A DNA stretch of 21,747 nt from Candidatus Latescibacterota bacterium (GTDB lineage Bacteria > JAAXHH01 > JABIQT01): positions 1-21,747 of the forward strand of contig JABIQT010000593.1 in NCBI GenBank assembly GCA_018667995.1, in the 5' to 3' direction. The translations under genes and the position numbers were made by a program. Within the stretch, counting starts at the first letter, position 1, and each line of letters starts with the position of its first letter. Below, piece by piece: positions 4,413 to 9,870 of this stretch. Below the pieces are notes generated by a model, which saw only the letters and a list, made by a program, of their open reading frames with translations, did not search any database and was not told where the DNA came from.

Positions 4413-5192
4413 CTAAAATCGAATCTCTACACTGCCAAGTTCCCCAAAGTCGGCCACAGCCCAATCATGTACCGCCGCCATGTTGATTCCGGTGCAGGAT
4501 CCAGTGGCGATGAGTGAACCAGAGGGAATATCCCGTCCCAATTCGCTCTGCTGTTTAACCAGCCACTCGAGCGCATTCAGAGGATTCCCCATCACGTCCG
4601 CACCAGATCCCCTGGCGACCAGATCTCCATTGAGCTGCAGACTCACTTCCTGCAATGCAAGATCACATTGACGCCATTCTTTAATCCCCTCGCCCAGAAC
4701 GAGATGCGTGCCTCCCGCATTGTCGGCGCACACGGCCAGAAAACCCGCAGTGGCCCGATCTGACAAACGACTATCCCCTATCTCTATCGCCGGAAAAAGC
4801 ATGTCCACGGCATCACGAATCGACTCCCGAGAATGAGCTGAAGTTGATGCTGGGATTACACGACCAGTCCTGAGCACAAACTCGACCTCACAGTTCCTGA
4901 AACTGGTAAACATATCGATACCGAGCGATGCAGGAGTATGGTGAATATTGGGAGTGAAGAGTCGACCTGATACTGCGGTATCCGCGCCTTCTGCTTTGGC
5001 CACGGTCTTGCTGGCGGCACCAATCTTCCAACCTGCGAGAGGAAGGCCCATCAGTTCTGTTACTCGAGACTGGATGGCGTATGACTCGTCCATAGACGTA
5101 GGCCGACACCTCGCCGGCAAATGAACGGCTGTACGCGTCATACGGGCCTGATGGAGGAGTCGAGCGGATTGATCGATGAAATCGGGAGTCAT
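4413..5192 (-). CDS. 2-keto-4-pentenoate hydratase-like enzyme (FAH superfamily, MhpD/HpaH type)
   Basis: A 259-residue protein, the usual length for this family. Seen: WKIGAASK (K56), the metal-binding acidic pair in CEVEF (E102, E104), a third ligand in PAIEIGDSRL (E137), then GSGADVMGNPLNALEWL and TGSCTG, all hallmarks of MhpD-type hydratases and 4-oxalocrotonate decarboxylases. Known: these Mg/Mn enzymes hydrate 2-hydroxydienoates or decarboxylate oxalocrotonate in meta-cleavage pathways of aromatics. No ring-cleavage dioxygenase, aldolase or dehydrogenase of such a pathway is present, so the substrate may be different. The start at 5192 lies six bases after the PhyH stop, indicating co-translation with that dioxygenase. 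Last gene of a four-gene minus-strand operon. Family assignment is firm, substrate is not. Confidence 0.9.
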   Translation of the reverse strand: MTPDFIDQSARLLHQARMTRTAVHLPARCRPTSMDESYAIQSRVTELMGLPLAGWKIGAASKTVAKAEGADTAVSGRLFTPNIHHTPASLGIDMFTSFRNCEVEFVLRTGRVIPASTSAHSRESIRDAVDMLFPAIEIGDSRLSDRATAGFLAVCADNAGGTHLVLGEGIKEWRQCDLALQEVSLQLNGDLVARGSGADVMGNPLNALEWLVKQQSELGRDIPSGSLIATGSCTGINMAAVHDWAVADFGELGSVEIRF

Positions 5193-5198
5193 TCTTAT

Positions 5199-6053
5199 CT
5201 AGGCCTGTGCGTCTTCTTGTCGCGAACGTTCCTGCAGGTCGTAAAGGGATGCTATCCGGCTCTCGTAGAGCGGCACAGGAAACTCATTCATGGAGAAGCG
5301 TGCTTTTGCGGCCAGCCCGCCTCGGACCAGTCGCGAGTGCTGTTCCGTGAGGTGTGTCATCTCGCCGGTATAGACAGGGAATGCGTCCGCAGCACGGTAG
5401 CTGAGAATCAATGTCCGACGCGGTTGCTTCGAAGTGTTGGTGATGGAGGAGTGGGGGGTCATGGCATTCATGAAGATGGCCGTCCCGGCAGCACCCTCCA
5501 AAGGTACGGCCTGCGACTCATCCACCTTTGTAGTGACTTTACCACGAAAGAAGCCCTGCGTACTGTGGTCGAGCAACGGTGCGGTATGCTTGCGAGGAAT
5601 AACCTGAAGGCATCCATTTTCAATTGTAGTATCATCCAGATAGAAGAGAATTGAAACTGAATCCCTATTGGTCAAAGGATAATAGGAAAGGTCTTGATGC
5701 CATTCTACCGGTGATCCTATGCCCGGCGGTTTCATGTTGATCTTGCTGTAGTGGAAGAACAGATCCGGGCCAAAGAGCTGTTCCACAAAACTGAGTAGGC
5801 TATCCGATTCAGAGAAAGCTCGAAAGGCTTCGTAGTGGGTGCATGGTTCATATAGTCGGCGTACGAGCTCACCGCCCGGCTCCTGCTGCGGCTCCATCTC
5901 CATTCGCATTTCATCGTGCTCCGCCAGCGTACTCCCGGCCGTCACTTCCTGGATCGAGGAATGAAATCGACCTAGGTCCCCATCAGACAGAAAGTGGGGA
6001 TAGAGCACGAATCCTTCCTCGGAAAATTGAGCCACCTGTTCCGACGTGAACAT
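5199..6053 (-). CDS. Phytanoyl-CoA dioxygenase (PhyH) family Fe(II)/2-oxoglutarate oxygenase
   Basis: A 284-residue protein of the double-stranded beta-helix oxygenases. Seen: the iron site HXD in VEWHQDLSYY (H119, D121), the distal histidine in MTPHSSITNTS (H201) and an arginine that would bind 2-oxoglutarate in PRRTLILSYR (R212/R213); also KINMKPPG and ENGCLQVIPRKHT, typical of bacterial PhyH proteins. All key residues are present, so it should be active. Known: the family hydroxylates lipids, CoA esters, amino acids and natural products. An ATG seven codons upstream (6074) is in frame, but 6053 is chosen because AAAGG precedes it at 8 bases and MFTSEQVAQFSEEGF is the normal family N-terminus. 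It sits 37 bases after the receiver protein gene and six before the hydratase gene. Substrate unknown. Confidence 0.9.
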   Translation of the reverse strand: MFTSEQVAQFSEEGFVLYPHFLSDGDLGRFHSSIQEVTAGSTLAEHDEMRMEMEPQQEPGGELVRRLYEPCTHYEAFRAFSESDSLLSFVEQLFGPDLFFHYSKINMKPPGIGSPVEWHQDLSYYPLTNRDSVSILFYLDDTTIENGCLQVIPRKHTAPLLDHSTQGFFRGKVTTKVDESQAVPLEGAAGTAIFMNAMTPHSSITNTSKQPRRTLILSYRAADAFPVYTGEMTHLTEQHSRLVRGGLAAKARFSMNEFPVPLYESRIASLYDLQERSRQEDAQA

Positions 6054-6066: not shown

Positions 6067-6090
6067 CGCGTCATGGACGCTTATACGGAC

Positions 6091-7527
6091 TCAATCCTTG
6101 ACCTGTCCCGTAGAGATTACCTGCTGGAGCACACCCGTCAGTTGATCAGCCTGGTAGGGTTTCGGAACCATGCCGATGAACCCGTATTTTCGATAGTTTG
6201 CGAGAATGGGATTATTAACGTAACCGCTGGACACGATCACCTGCGCCTGAGGATCGGACATCATGATTCTATTGAGAGCATCTTTGCCACCCATGCCCCC
6301 GGGCACCGTAAGGTCCAGAATAACGGCATCGAATGGTGCCCCAGATCTCCCTGCCTCCACATAGGCATCAACTGCCGCCTGTCCGTCCTCTGTCAGCACG
6401 ACCTCATAGCCCGAATGGGTAAGGATGTCAGAGACCAGGGATCGGACTATCCGCTCGTCGTCCATCATAAGTATCTTACCACCCTCTTCAGGACGGACAC
6501 GTTCGGCGATTTCTTCGGACGCAAGCAGTTCACTGTTGCCACTCGTTCGTTCGGATTCTCGGGACTTCCTATCGGAGATATCGAAGAGCGTCCCAAAGAC
6601 ACCGCGAATGTCGCCGTCTTCATTTCGTACAGGTCTGGCATGCATTTCGACCCATATCACCCTATCCTCTTCATGTACTATTCGAAATTCACTCCGGCAG
6701 GTTTCTGATTGACCAGACAAGATTGGCGAAAAAACATGAAGAAATGCCCTCTGATCCTCAGGATGTACAAACTCGAGCACACTGGCGCCCAGGCTCTGCT
6801 CAACTGACTCACCCGTGTATACGGTCCATGCAGGATTTAGAAAAGACCAGTATCCGGCATCGTCAGTCTGGAATATTACCTCATCGACATTGTCAATTAC
6901 AGATTGATACTTGAAGCCCCTACTGCTCATTTCCATGTGCAGCTTTACCCGCGATATGTGAACTTTGAGGTTGTCACCAATACGCTCCGCAAGAGTAACG
7001 TCCATTCGCGTTAGTCCGATTTCAGGGGTCAATCCGATGACCAGTGCGCCGATGACTTGCACACTATCTGCTACGGGTATCCACACACTGGCAGCCACTT
7101 GCTCGGTCGTTCGCGAGAACAACGGATCTTCATCTATATCCGTAAGGTGCTCCGTTTTACCAGACCGAATTATGCGAGCGCTTACGCCCTGATTGGCTGG
7201 AAACTCCTCGACTGGCTTCTCAATTCCCGCGGCATGACGGAGCTTCATGGCGTGATCTTCGAGCATGTAGAGGCTCACATAAGGGAATCTGGATAGCTCA
7301 GAAAGTTTAGAGACGATTTTTTCACAGAGGGGATCCAATTCAAGATCACCTGACAGGGCGTGCTCATAGCTACTCAACACCTCCAGCATATCCGCATGTC
7401 GCCTGGAATCCGATGATATCTGTGACACATATTTGTTCTGTTGCTGAGAGCGATAAAGAACCCAGACCAGTACCGCAACGGAAGCGATCAGACCAATGAA
7501 AACCATATCTGTCAGATTTGTAGGCAT
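6091..7527 (-). CDS. Membrane-anchored GAF-PAS-receiver protein lacking a kinase core
   Basis: A 478-residue protein. Seen in order: one membrane helix (about 8-24), a GAF domain (about 45-190), a PAS/PAC domain (about 205-322, with DEVIFQTDDAGYWSFLNPAW and GVFGTLFDISDR), a short linker, and a CheY-like receiver (about 350-475) with acidic pair D356/D357, phospho-acceptor D405 in ILDLTVPGGMGG, a conserved SSG and K456 in PKPY. No HisKA or HATPase domain and no output domain. The upstream gene has the same layout plus the kinase core, and its receiver is closely similar, so the two are paralogues and this copy probably lost about 250 residues between PAS and REC. It may accept phosphate from the neighbouring kinase, act as a phosphate sink, or signal by protein contact. 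The reading frame is intact across the linker. Gap to the kinase gene 69 bases. Confidence 0.9.
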   Translation of the reverse strand: MPTNLTDMVFIGLIASVAVLVWVLYRSQQQNKYVSQISSDSRRHADMLEVLSSYEHALSGDLELDPLCEKIVSKLSELSRFPYVSLYMLEDHAMKLRHAAGIEKPVEEFPANQGVSARIIRSGKTEHLTDIDEDPLFSRTTEQVAASVWIPVADSVQVIGALVIGLTPEIGLTRMDVTLAERIGDNLKVHISRVKLHMEMSSRGFKYQSVIDNVDEVIFQTDDAGYWSFLNPAWTVYTGESVEQSLGASVLEFVHPEDQRAFLHVFSPILSGQSETCRSEFRIVHEEDRVIWVEMHARPVRNEDGDIRGVFGTLFDISDRKSRESERTSGNSELLASEEIAERVRPEEGGKILMMDDERIVRSLVSDILTHSGYEVVLTEDGQAAVDAYVEAGRSGAPFDAVILDLTVPGGMGGKDALNRIMMSDPQAQVIVSSGYVNNPILANYRKYGFIGMVPKPYQADQLTGVLQQVISTGQVKD

Positions 7528-7596
7528 AGTCCGGTTTGCTCGTTTTCTCGTAAAATGAGATGTTTACAGCCCAGATCGGTCAACCAATATTCGTAT

Positions 7597-9870
7597 TTAC
7601 TGTGTCTGCGAGGACGTCTCATGACCGATGGCTAGCACTTCATGAAGCACTTTGCTCAGCTGCGTGGTTCGATAAGGCTTCGGTACTCTTCCTGCGAATC
7701 CGTACTCATGGAAATTTGCCATGACTGGATCATTAGAGTATCCACTTGATGCGATGACCCGGGCCTGTGGATCTTTCATTAGAATATGCTGCAACGCCTC
7801 TCGCCCACCCATTCCACCGGGTACCGTTAAATCCATCAGTACGGCTGCGAACGGTCTACCGGCAGCATGTTCCCGCGAATAGGTACTGACGGCTTCGGCG
7901 CCATCTTCTGTGAGTGTTACCGCATACCCACAGTGCGTCAGAATATCTGCAACCAGGTCCCGGACGATGGCTTCATCCTCCATGACCAAGATCTTACCGG
8001 TCCCATTGAAGTAGATTTCTTCCTCTTCGTGTTTCTCGATTCTTGAATCCGGAGAGGCAGGAAGATAGATTGTAAATGTAGATCCTTCGCCAACCTCTGA
8101 TTCAAGATAGATAGCTCCATGGTGGTTATTGATAATCGAATGCGAGGTGGCCAGCCCCAAACCAGTGCCGGTAGGTTTGGTGGTAAAATAAGGGTCAAAG
8201 ATCTTCTGCTGCTGCTGTTCAGGGATTCCAATGCCTTCATCAGACACGGTAATCCGCACATATTGCCCTGGTTGCAACTGCAATGCAGGGTCAACGATCT
8301 TCGAAAGGTTCTCTGCTTGAATTCTAATGACGCCACCTTCGGGCATGGCCTGCTGAGCATTGAGAATCAGGTTCTGGATGACCTGACTTATCTGACCGCT
8401 GTCCACATCACCCGGCCACAGTTCCTCAGGGACTTCGAAATCACATCGTACATTGGAGCCTCTCGAAACAAAGGTTGCCGCTTCGTACAGAATCTCGCGT
8501 ATGGAGGCAATCTGTGTGACAGGTTCTCCGCCCTTGGAGAACGTTAGCAGCTGCTGGGTGAGCTTCTGTGCTTCTAAGGTGGCTCGCTCAGCCATCGTCA
8601 AACGGGGCGCCAGGCGATCGTCCGCCTCAGGGGTAATTAGAAGGTGTGCAAAGGAAATATGTCCGAGAATACCCGTGAGCAAATTGTTGAAGTCATGGGC
8701 AATCCCACCGGCAAGCGGACTTATCGCCTCAAGTTTACTCAGGCGGAATCGTTCTTCATCAATCTGCTTGCGTTCGGTGATGTCGTTCAATGTGCCGAAG
8801 ATACCAAGAGGGGCACCGTCGGTATCTTCGGAAACACGGGCATTAACCTCGATCCACCGTAAATCTCCGCTCTGGTTTACATAGCGAAATTCGTCCCGAT
8901 CCGAAGGACGCTGGCGCGTCAGGATAGGATTAAAGAACTCCATGTGCTGACGACGGTCATCGGGATGCACGTAGAGCAGGATATTGGTCCCCATGGCGTC
9001 GCGTACACTGTATCCCGTAACGTCCTGCCAGGCCGGATTCAGAAACGTAATGCGCCCGTCAATATCCGTTTTGAAGATAACTTCCTTTACATTCTCCACC
9101 ACAGAGCGATAGCTGCGTTCATTCTCACGAGCTTCTGTATATAACCGGGCACGCTCGATGGCGATATTGATGTGGTCGCTCAAGGCCATCATGAGCAGAA
9201 GATCAGCCTCGGAAAGAACAACGCCCTTCTTGCTTTCTACATTGAGAACCCCGACACCGCGGCCCTGATCAAAGAGTGGAATACATACTTCCGATTCAAC
9301 GTCGTCAGCAGACCTATGCACGGTGGGATCACGACTCACATCTTCCAGCAGTACAGGTTCTCCCGTTCGAACCACGCGCGCCATAACTTCGGAGTCAGTC
9401 GGCATATTCTCAATGGAACCCTCGTAACCTACCTGATGCTGCATAACCAGATCATCGTCCTCAAGCAGATATATACTGACCAATGCATATCCGAATGTGT
9501 CGGCTATGGCCTTCACCACAGTTCTCATAAGATCGGGAAGCGCTAACTCTCGTGCAAGAGCAGTCCTAATCTGGTCGAGCAAGGCCAGTTCCTGGGTCTG
9601 ACGTTCTGCAGATGCAAGCAGATCACGATATTGCTGTTCGCGCTCCCGAAGTTGCTGCTCTGTCTCCTTGCGCCTTTCAATGTCTCGCTGATATTTATGG
9701 ATCAATACAGTCAGCATAACCGCCATGAGGCATGCCGCAACAACCAAAGCAGCGAAATACAAGGCTGTGGGCGACAACTCACCCCAGATATTGGCTTGCG
9801 CCAAGTAGACGCTTCCAGAGGTTCGCTGAGAGAATTGAAGCAAGACAAAATCTTGGTTTACCAGGTCCAT
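7597..9870 (-). CDS. Hybrid sensor histidine kinase (TM-GAF-PAS-HisKA-HATPase-REC)
   Basis: A 757-residue protein. Seen in order: about 33 N-terminal residues probably outside, one membrane helix (about 34-57), a charged coiled coil (about 58-95), GAF (about 95-245), PAS/PAC (about 250-367), HisKA with phospho-accepting H392 in GGIAHDFNNLL, HATPase with N box (N500/N504), G1 SDEGIGIP, F box IFDPYFTTK and G2 GTGLGLA, and a C-terminal receiver with E631/D632, D680 in MDLTVPGGMGG and K731. All catalytic residues are present. Autophosphorylation on H392 and internal transfer to D680 is expected. Neither this nor the next gene carries a DNA-binding output, so a phosphotransfer protein or regulator elsewhere is likely needed. 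It is the first gene of the minus-strand operon. An in-frame stop at 9892-9894 limits upstream extension. Confidence 0.95.
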   Translation of the reverse strand: MDLVNQDFVLLQFSQRTSGSVYLAQANIWGELSPTALYFAALVVAACLMAVMLTVLIHKYQRDIERRKETEQQLREREQQYRDLLASAERQTQELALLDQIRTALARELALPDLMRTVVKAIADTFGYALVSIYLLEDDDLVMQHQVGYEGSIENMPTDSEVMARVVRTGEPVLLEDVSRDPTVHRSADDVESEVCIPLFDQGRGVGVLNVESKKGVVLSEADLLLMMALSDHINIAIERARLYTEARENERSYRSVVENVKEVIFKTDIDGRITFLNPAWQDVTGYSVRDAMGTNILLYVHPDDRRQHMEFFNPILTRQRPSDRDEFRYVNQSGDLRWIEVNARVSEDTDGAPLGIFGTLNDITERKQIDEERFRLSKLEAISPLAGGIAHDFNNLLTGILGHISFAHLLITPEADDRLAPRLTMAERATLEAQKLTQQLLTFSKGGEPVTQIASIREILYEAATFVSRGSNVRCDFEVPEELWPGDVDSGQISQVIQNLILNAQQAMPEGGVIRIQAENLSKIVDPALQLQPGQYVRITVSDEGIGIPEQQQQKIFDPYFTTKPTGTGLGLATSHSIINNHHGAIYLESEVGEGSTFTIYLPASPDSRIEKHEEEEIYFNGTGKILVMEDEAIVRDLVADILTHCGYAVTLTEDGAEAVSTYSREHAAGRPFAAVLMDLTVPGGMGGREALQHILMKDPQARVIASSGYSNDPVMANFHEYGFAGRVPKPYRTTQLSKVLHEVLAIGHETSSQTQ

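Follow-up and report, generated by a model that had tools for sequence, protein, structure and literature searches.

A kinase-less, membrane-anchored sensor-receiver protein beside a hybrid histidine kinase in Candidatus Latescibacterota: a candidate acceptor of the kinase's phosphoryl group

What might a membrane-anchored receiver do when it carries sensor domains of its own and has neither a kinase nor an output domain? The question is raised by two adjacent genes of a Candidatus Latescibacterota bacterium. They lie on a 21.7-kb contig (21,747 nucleotides; the window, meaning the whole stretch of DNA analyzed here) of a draft genome of 6.06 Mb in 1165 contigs that is 85% complete. Four co-directional genes follow one another on the minus strand, to which all feature coordinates below refer: a hybrid histidine kinase of 757 amino acids (P2; 7597 to 9870; open reading frame, Pfam, and NCBIfam), a kinase-less sensor-receiver protein of 478 amino acids (P1; 6091 to 7527; a frame without stops, Pfam, and BLASTP), a PhyH family gene directly downstream of P1 (5199 to 6053; the frame opens at 6074, with the likely start at 6053), and, last, a gene resembling FAA hydrolase/2-oxopent-4-enoate hydratase (4413 to 5192; domain and family matches). 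The gap between P1 and P2 is 69 nt, and no terminator-like site was found between them on their strand.

Pfam and hydropathy give P2 the architecture TM-GAF-PAS-HisKA-HATPase-REC. Its sole hydrophobic N-terminal segment is a predicted transmembrane helix (residues 37 to 57; 9700 to 9762), followed by Pfam matches to GAF (residues 110 to 239; 9154 to 9543), PAS (residues 254 to 364; 8779 to 9111), and HATPase_c (residues 490 to 606; 8053 to 8403) domains. HisKA (residues 387 to 448; 8527 to 8712) scores below the Pfam gathering threshold, at 21.5 against a curated cut-off of 26.9 bits, and is also marked by an intact HDFNN box with the phospho-acceptor H392. The receiver (residues 625 to 750; 7621 to 7998; Pfam, BLASTP, and motif) carries D680. 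Together with NLILNA at 500, DEGIGIP at 544, and GTGLGL at 568, these residues provide the HisKA histidine, the N and G boxes of the HATPase, and the C-terminal receiver aspartate of a hybrid histidine kinase. The best NCBIfam resemblance of the P2 core is to CckA, at 243 bits against a curated cut-off of 1000; by this measure P2 is no CckA equivalog and is CckA-like in its core only.

P1 has the architecture TM-GAF-PAS-REC, and Pfam shows neither HisKA nor HATPase. The sole hydrophobic N-terminal segment is again a predicted transmembrane helix by hydropathy (residues 6 to 25; 7453 to 7512), and an AlphaFold2 model draws a single long helix across residues 5 to 58. The GAF domain (residues 64 to 189; 6961 to 7338) and the PAS domain (residues 207 to 317; 6577 to 6909) were assigned by Pfam; AlphaFold2 predicts the PAS domain poorly because the alignment is thin (13 rows, partly misaligned). 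The PAS domain ends between residues 317 and 328 and the receiver starts at 350, so that P1 is not a hybrid histidine kinase; the short junction (residues 318 to 349; 6481 to 6576) is where HisKA and HATPase sit in full-length relatives. The receiver (residues 350 to 475; 6103 to 6480; Pfam Response_reg match at residues 352 to 466, BLASTP) contains the acid pair D356/D357, the phospho-acceptor D405, S434, and K456, and is modeled with pLDDT mostly above 90. The first-pass annotation had described two neighbors sharing TM, GAF, PAS, and receiver domains, with both phospho-acceptors present and P1 passing from PAS directly to the receiver. The frames, domains, and both aspartates are as described, and BLASTP aligns P1 with P2 at the front and in the receiver, with no match between.

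How closely are the two proteins related? BLASTP gives 34% identity over the GAF-PAS part and 60% over 126 amino acids of the receiver. A domain-by-domain alignment, the comparison proposed at the outset, resolves this into 60% for the receiver, 44% for PAS, and 28% for GAF. The GAF domain of P2 is 57 to 66% identical to that of its orthologues and 56% identical to that of a paralogue in its own genome, compared with the 28% seen for P1, and the front part of P1 may reflect either fast sensor evolution or an origin elsewhere; at this distance its GAF domain may have been replaced. Both receivers do contain DLTVPGGMGG, SSGY (at 433 and 708), and PKPY (at 455 and 730), as first noted. These motifs (DLTxPGGMGG, SSGY, and KPY) are typical of a whole receiver subfamily found in many genomes; alone they are therefore no proof of a private duplication, and the link between P1 and P2 comes from the tree.

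In the receiver tree, P1, P2, and the P2 orthologues of two other genomes (G011 and G013, of genera g4 and g5) are united with support of 99/99 (95/90 in a smaller tree). P1 is placed just outside P2 and its orthologues (95/79; 92/91 in the smaller tree), suggesting that it may branch before P2 split from the orthologues in two other genera. A private sisterhood of P1 and P2 is disfavored and not firmly rejected (p-AU of 0.058), and a tree of the GAF-PAS part gave no resolved fork. An origin of P1 in an unrelated response-regulator family, a finding that would have refuted the original proposal, is rejected both by this grouping and by receiver scores, which are below 40 bits for the other receivers of the genome and 80 to 190 bits within the family. 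By its grouping as well as its conserved residues, P1 belongs with the C-terminal receivers of hybrid kinases.

Within this family, 46 of 49 receivers follow a HATPase G2 box; the exceptions are P1, a HATPase-less protein from Aminicenantes (L030), and a broken gene (L028). Since nearly all of these receivers follow a HATPase, that of P1 came, by this reasoning, from a hybrid kinase whose core was lost. Four short-frame candidates for further kinase-less forms (G378, G375, G202, and G334) were discarded, as each has a HATPase before its receiver. The Aminicenantes gene (L030:1605-3377, from a Candidatus Aminicenantes MAG) encodes a hybrid kinase with HisKA and receiver whose frame goes from HisKA straight to the last HATPase strand; either part of the kinase core was lost here in parallel, or the assembly is wrong.

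The divergence of P1 and P2 is old. Their receivers use the same codon at 23 of 73 identical residues, with 24.9 expected, and third positions are 31% identical. Synonymous sites are thus saturated at 60% protein identity, indicating that the likeness of the proteins was kept by selection. Saturation rules out a recent duplication, and recent gene conversion between the receivers is dismissed as well, since the receivers share no stretch of highly similar DNA and agree in codon choice only as often as chance predicts. The initial proposal of duplication followed by loss of the kinase core accordingly holds well for the loss; the duplication is old, perhaps older than the separation of P2 from its orthologues.

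P1 looks like a working protein and not an obvious artefact, judging from its coding sequence, although it is seen in one genome. It is an open frame of 478 codons, whereas a neutral frame of this length acquired stops in 200 of 200 simulated runs at 0.1 substitutions per site, and its GC content by codon position matches that of P2. The concern that the kinase-less form is an artefact of one assembly is eased by an intact gene and kept alive by its single occurrence. Within the phylum (16 genomes) P1 turned up in this genome only, and none of 384 genomes spread over the domain yielded it among the best four candidates scored per genome; no record of a plasmid collection covers 80% of P1. A genome search for adjacent TM-GAF-PAS-HK-REC and TM-GAF-PAS-REC proteins, suggested by the first-pass annotation, did not find a second example.

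In two relatives (G011, locus L037; G013, locus L038), the P2 orthologue is followed directly by a PhyH orthologue, 63% and 68% identical to that of the window, respectively. Neither junction, with gaps of about 13 and 121 nt, contains P1 or a remnant of it. Both P2 orthologues (L037:3206-5371, contig G011:C146; L038:2674-4839, contig G013:C193) are broken, by frameshifts or in-frame stops (two TGA codons), with open flanking genes, which suggests that the kinase locus is decaying in the order. The PhyH gene is kept in 14 of 14 same-order genomes searched and adjoins a P2 orthologue in two.

Judged by its residues, the P1 receiver is fully equipped for phosphorylation. At each of the 21 positions that are ≥90% conserved across the family, it has the conserved residue, among them D356, D357, D405, S434, and K456; P2 keeps 18 of these residues, as does the broken G013 orthologue, which has lost P409 and Y436. 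The acid pair starts with Glu (EDE) in P2 and its orthologues and with Asp in P1 and 93% of the family.

The α1 helix of receivers docks on the DHp helices of kinases, as established for Spo0F-Spo0B and HK853-RR468 and by specificity rewiring. In the P1 receiver this helix, positioned from the AlphaFold2 model (residues 359 to 371; 6415 to 6453), is identical to that of P2 at 11 of 14 positions (0.79). For comparison, 536 receiver pairs that are about as alike as P1 and P2 beyond the docking parts average 0.34 (SD, 0.11) in this helix, and 1 of them reaches 0.79; the pairs lack statistical independence, and the P1-P2 value owes something to common descent, since both lie in one clade. The P2 orthologues available for this comparison are broken genes only and make poor yardsticks. 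A sliding scan of 12 residues likewise picked α1 (360 to 371) as the receiver segment most excessively shared with P2 (z of 3.9; 1 of 361 pairs). Because α1 is the DHp-docking helix, its sharing points to the P2 kinase as the likely phosphodonor of P1, and favors real phosphotransfer from P2 to P1 over an inert decoy. P1 also has the intact phospho-acceptor and the predicted docking surface for a shared kinase that the sequence of a phosphate-sink receiver should contain.

We therefore favor, with a probability of roughly 0.5, a model in which P1 takes phosphate from P2, as a branch or a sink, as a membrane-tethered receiver with its own diverged sensors. P1 would have arisen long ago from a P2-type hybrid kinase, shed HisKA and HATPase, and been kept under selection. 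P2 would autophosphorylate at H392 and pass the phosphoryl group to D680 of its own receiver or to the competing D405 of P1, which would dock on the same DHp helices through its nearly identical α1 and so drain or branch the signal. The diverged GAF and PAS domains of P1 may read another cue and set its competitiveness as an acceptor. This complete picture, a sensor-gated, membrane-tethered sink or branch made from a duplicated hybrid kinase with its core cut out, is put forward more tentatively. Architecture, ancestry, intactness, phosphorylation residues, and α1 were computed; from them we infer the transfer, its net effect (sink or branch), and the gating by GAF and PAS. If the model is right, signals would be integrated at a competing acceptor instead of at the kinase, with the second sensor controlling the acceptor and not the kinase, and the pair would be a natural test of selection on a docking helix after loss of the kinase core.

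Phosphotransfer between related hybrid proteins has precedents. The EspA kinase of Myxococcus xanthus phosphorylates the receiver of EspC as well as its own (PMC4320627), and CheA3 phosphorylates the receiver of CheS3 (PMC3868531). EspA and EspC resemble the proposed P2-P1 pair as two related hybrid-kinase proteins in which one kinase serves both receivers (PMC4320627), but EspC is reported to be a hybrid kinase that has its kinase region, and P1 has none. Phosphate reaches a GacS-family receiver from its own protein and from others (PMC8175716). In the Pseudomonas GacS multikinase network, related hybrid-kinase receivers likewise take phosphate across proteins in a manner predictable from ancestry (PMC8175716); the members studied there, unlike P1, are hybrid kinases, and the parts of that report used here describe no kinase-less one. 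Singly, then, the components are already known: kinase-less partners, receivers combined with PAS or GAF domains, and cross-phosphorylation among hybrid kinases that are related. Their combination in one tandem pair was found nowhere else in the genomes searched, and the literature searched yielded no PAS-REC protein lacking an output domain.

The sequence by itself does not separate sink, branch, decoy, and hetero-complex. As a hetero-complex modulator, a doubtful role that nevertheless survives best among the alternatives, P1 would pair with P2 in the membrane via TM, signaling helix, and GAF/PAS and switch the P2 kinase on or off, like RetS-GacS or DivL-CckA, with the receiver as a secondary input. 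The shared TM-GAF-PAS layout and the continuous helix of the P1 model agree with such pairing. So does the P2 core, which is most like CckA, whose partner DivL is short and without the pseudo-kinase in Rhodobacterales (PMC9430884). Short DivL, like P1, partners a CckA-type hybrid kinase (proposed for P1) and has kept PAS while losing its kinase-like region (PMC9430884), but it has no receiver, whereas that of P1 is predicted to be phosphorylatable. The surfaces likely to form a dimer are the least conserved (GAF, 28%; PAS, 44%) and the receiver the best, which argues against this reading. FixT and Osp, which act on the histidine kinases FixL and CckA, are, like P1, receiver proteins without an output domain. 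These inhibitors consist of one domain each, without the two acid residues, and stay unphosphorylated (PMC9430884), whereas P1 has the acid pair and D405, a membrane tether, and sensors; its receiver, fully equipped for phosphorylation, thus also speaks against the modulator reading.

Quite unlikely, in our estimate, is an output-type receiver that takes its phosphate from P2 or some other kinase and acts by protein contact, for example by passing phosphate to an HPt domain. Such a role has been proposed for the REC-PAS-GAF regulators common in archaea, which combine a receiver with PAS and GAF domains and have neither kinase nor output (PMC5847659), and of the five HPt domains encoded in the genome, one lies next to a REC-SpoIIE protein and to a hybrid kinase that shares 50% identity with P2 over GAF-PAS. 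However, the archaeal receivers are N-terminal, their proteins are not described as derivatives of a neighboring hybrid kinase, and the P2-P1 operon has no HPt or output gene. That P1 is a dying copy, or its missing core an assembly error in a draft genome, is very improbable: its single occurrence and the broken P2 orthologues, which show that genes of this family do break down within the order, are outweighed by the open frame, the complete set of conserved receiver residues, and saturated synonymous divergence at 60% protein identity. The differences between P1 and P2, which run through the whole of their shared parts, exclude an assembly fusion of the two.

The larger hybrid kinase near the HPt domain (L041:3988-8433, contig G000:C958) has a different receiver and is followed by the REC-SpoIIE phosphatase protein and the HPt domain. 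Between the TIM-barrel gene and PhyH, where P2 and P1 lie in the window, a relative has a second PhyH-like gene and no kinase (L083:2404-5531, contig G001:C78). At a further locus (L040:1710-6784, contig G000:C146), a pair of complete hybrid kinases with receivers of this family lies in tandem, directly followed by another PhyH family gene, an order that echoes the P2-P1-PhyH order of the window.
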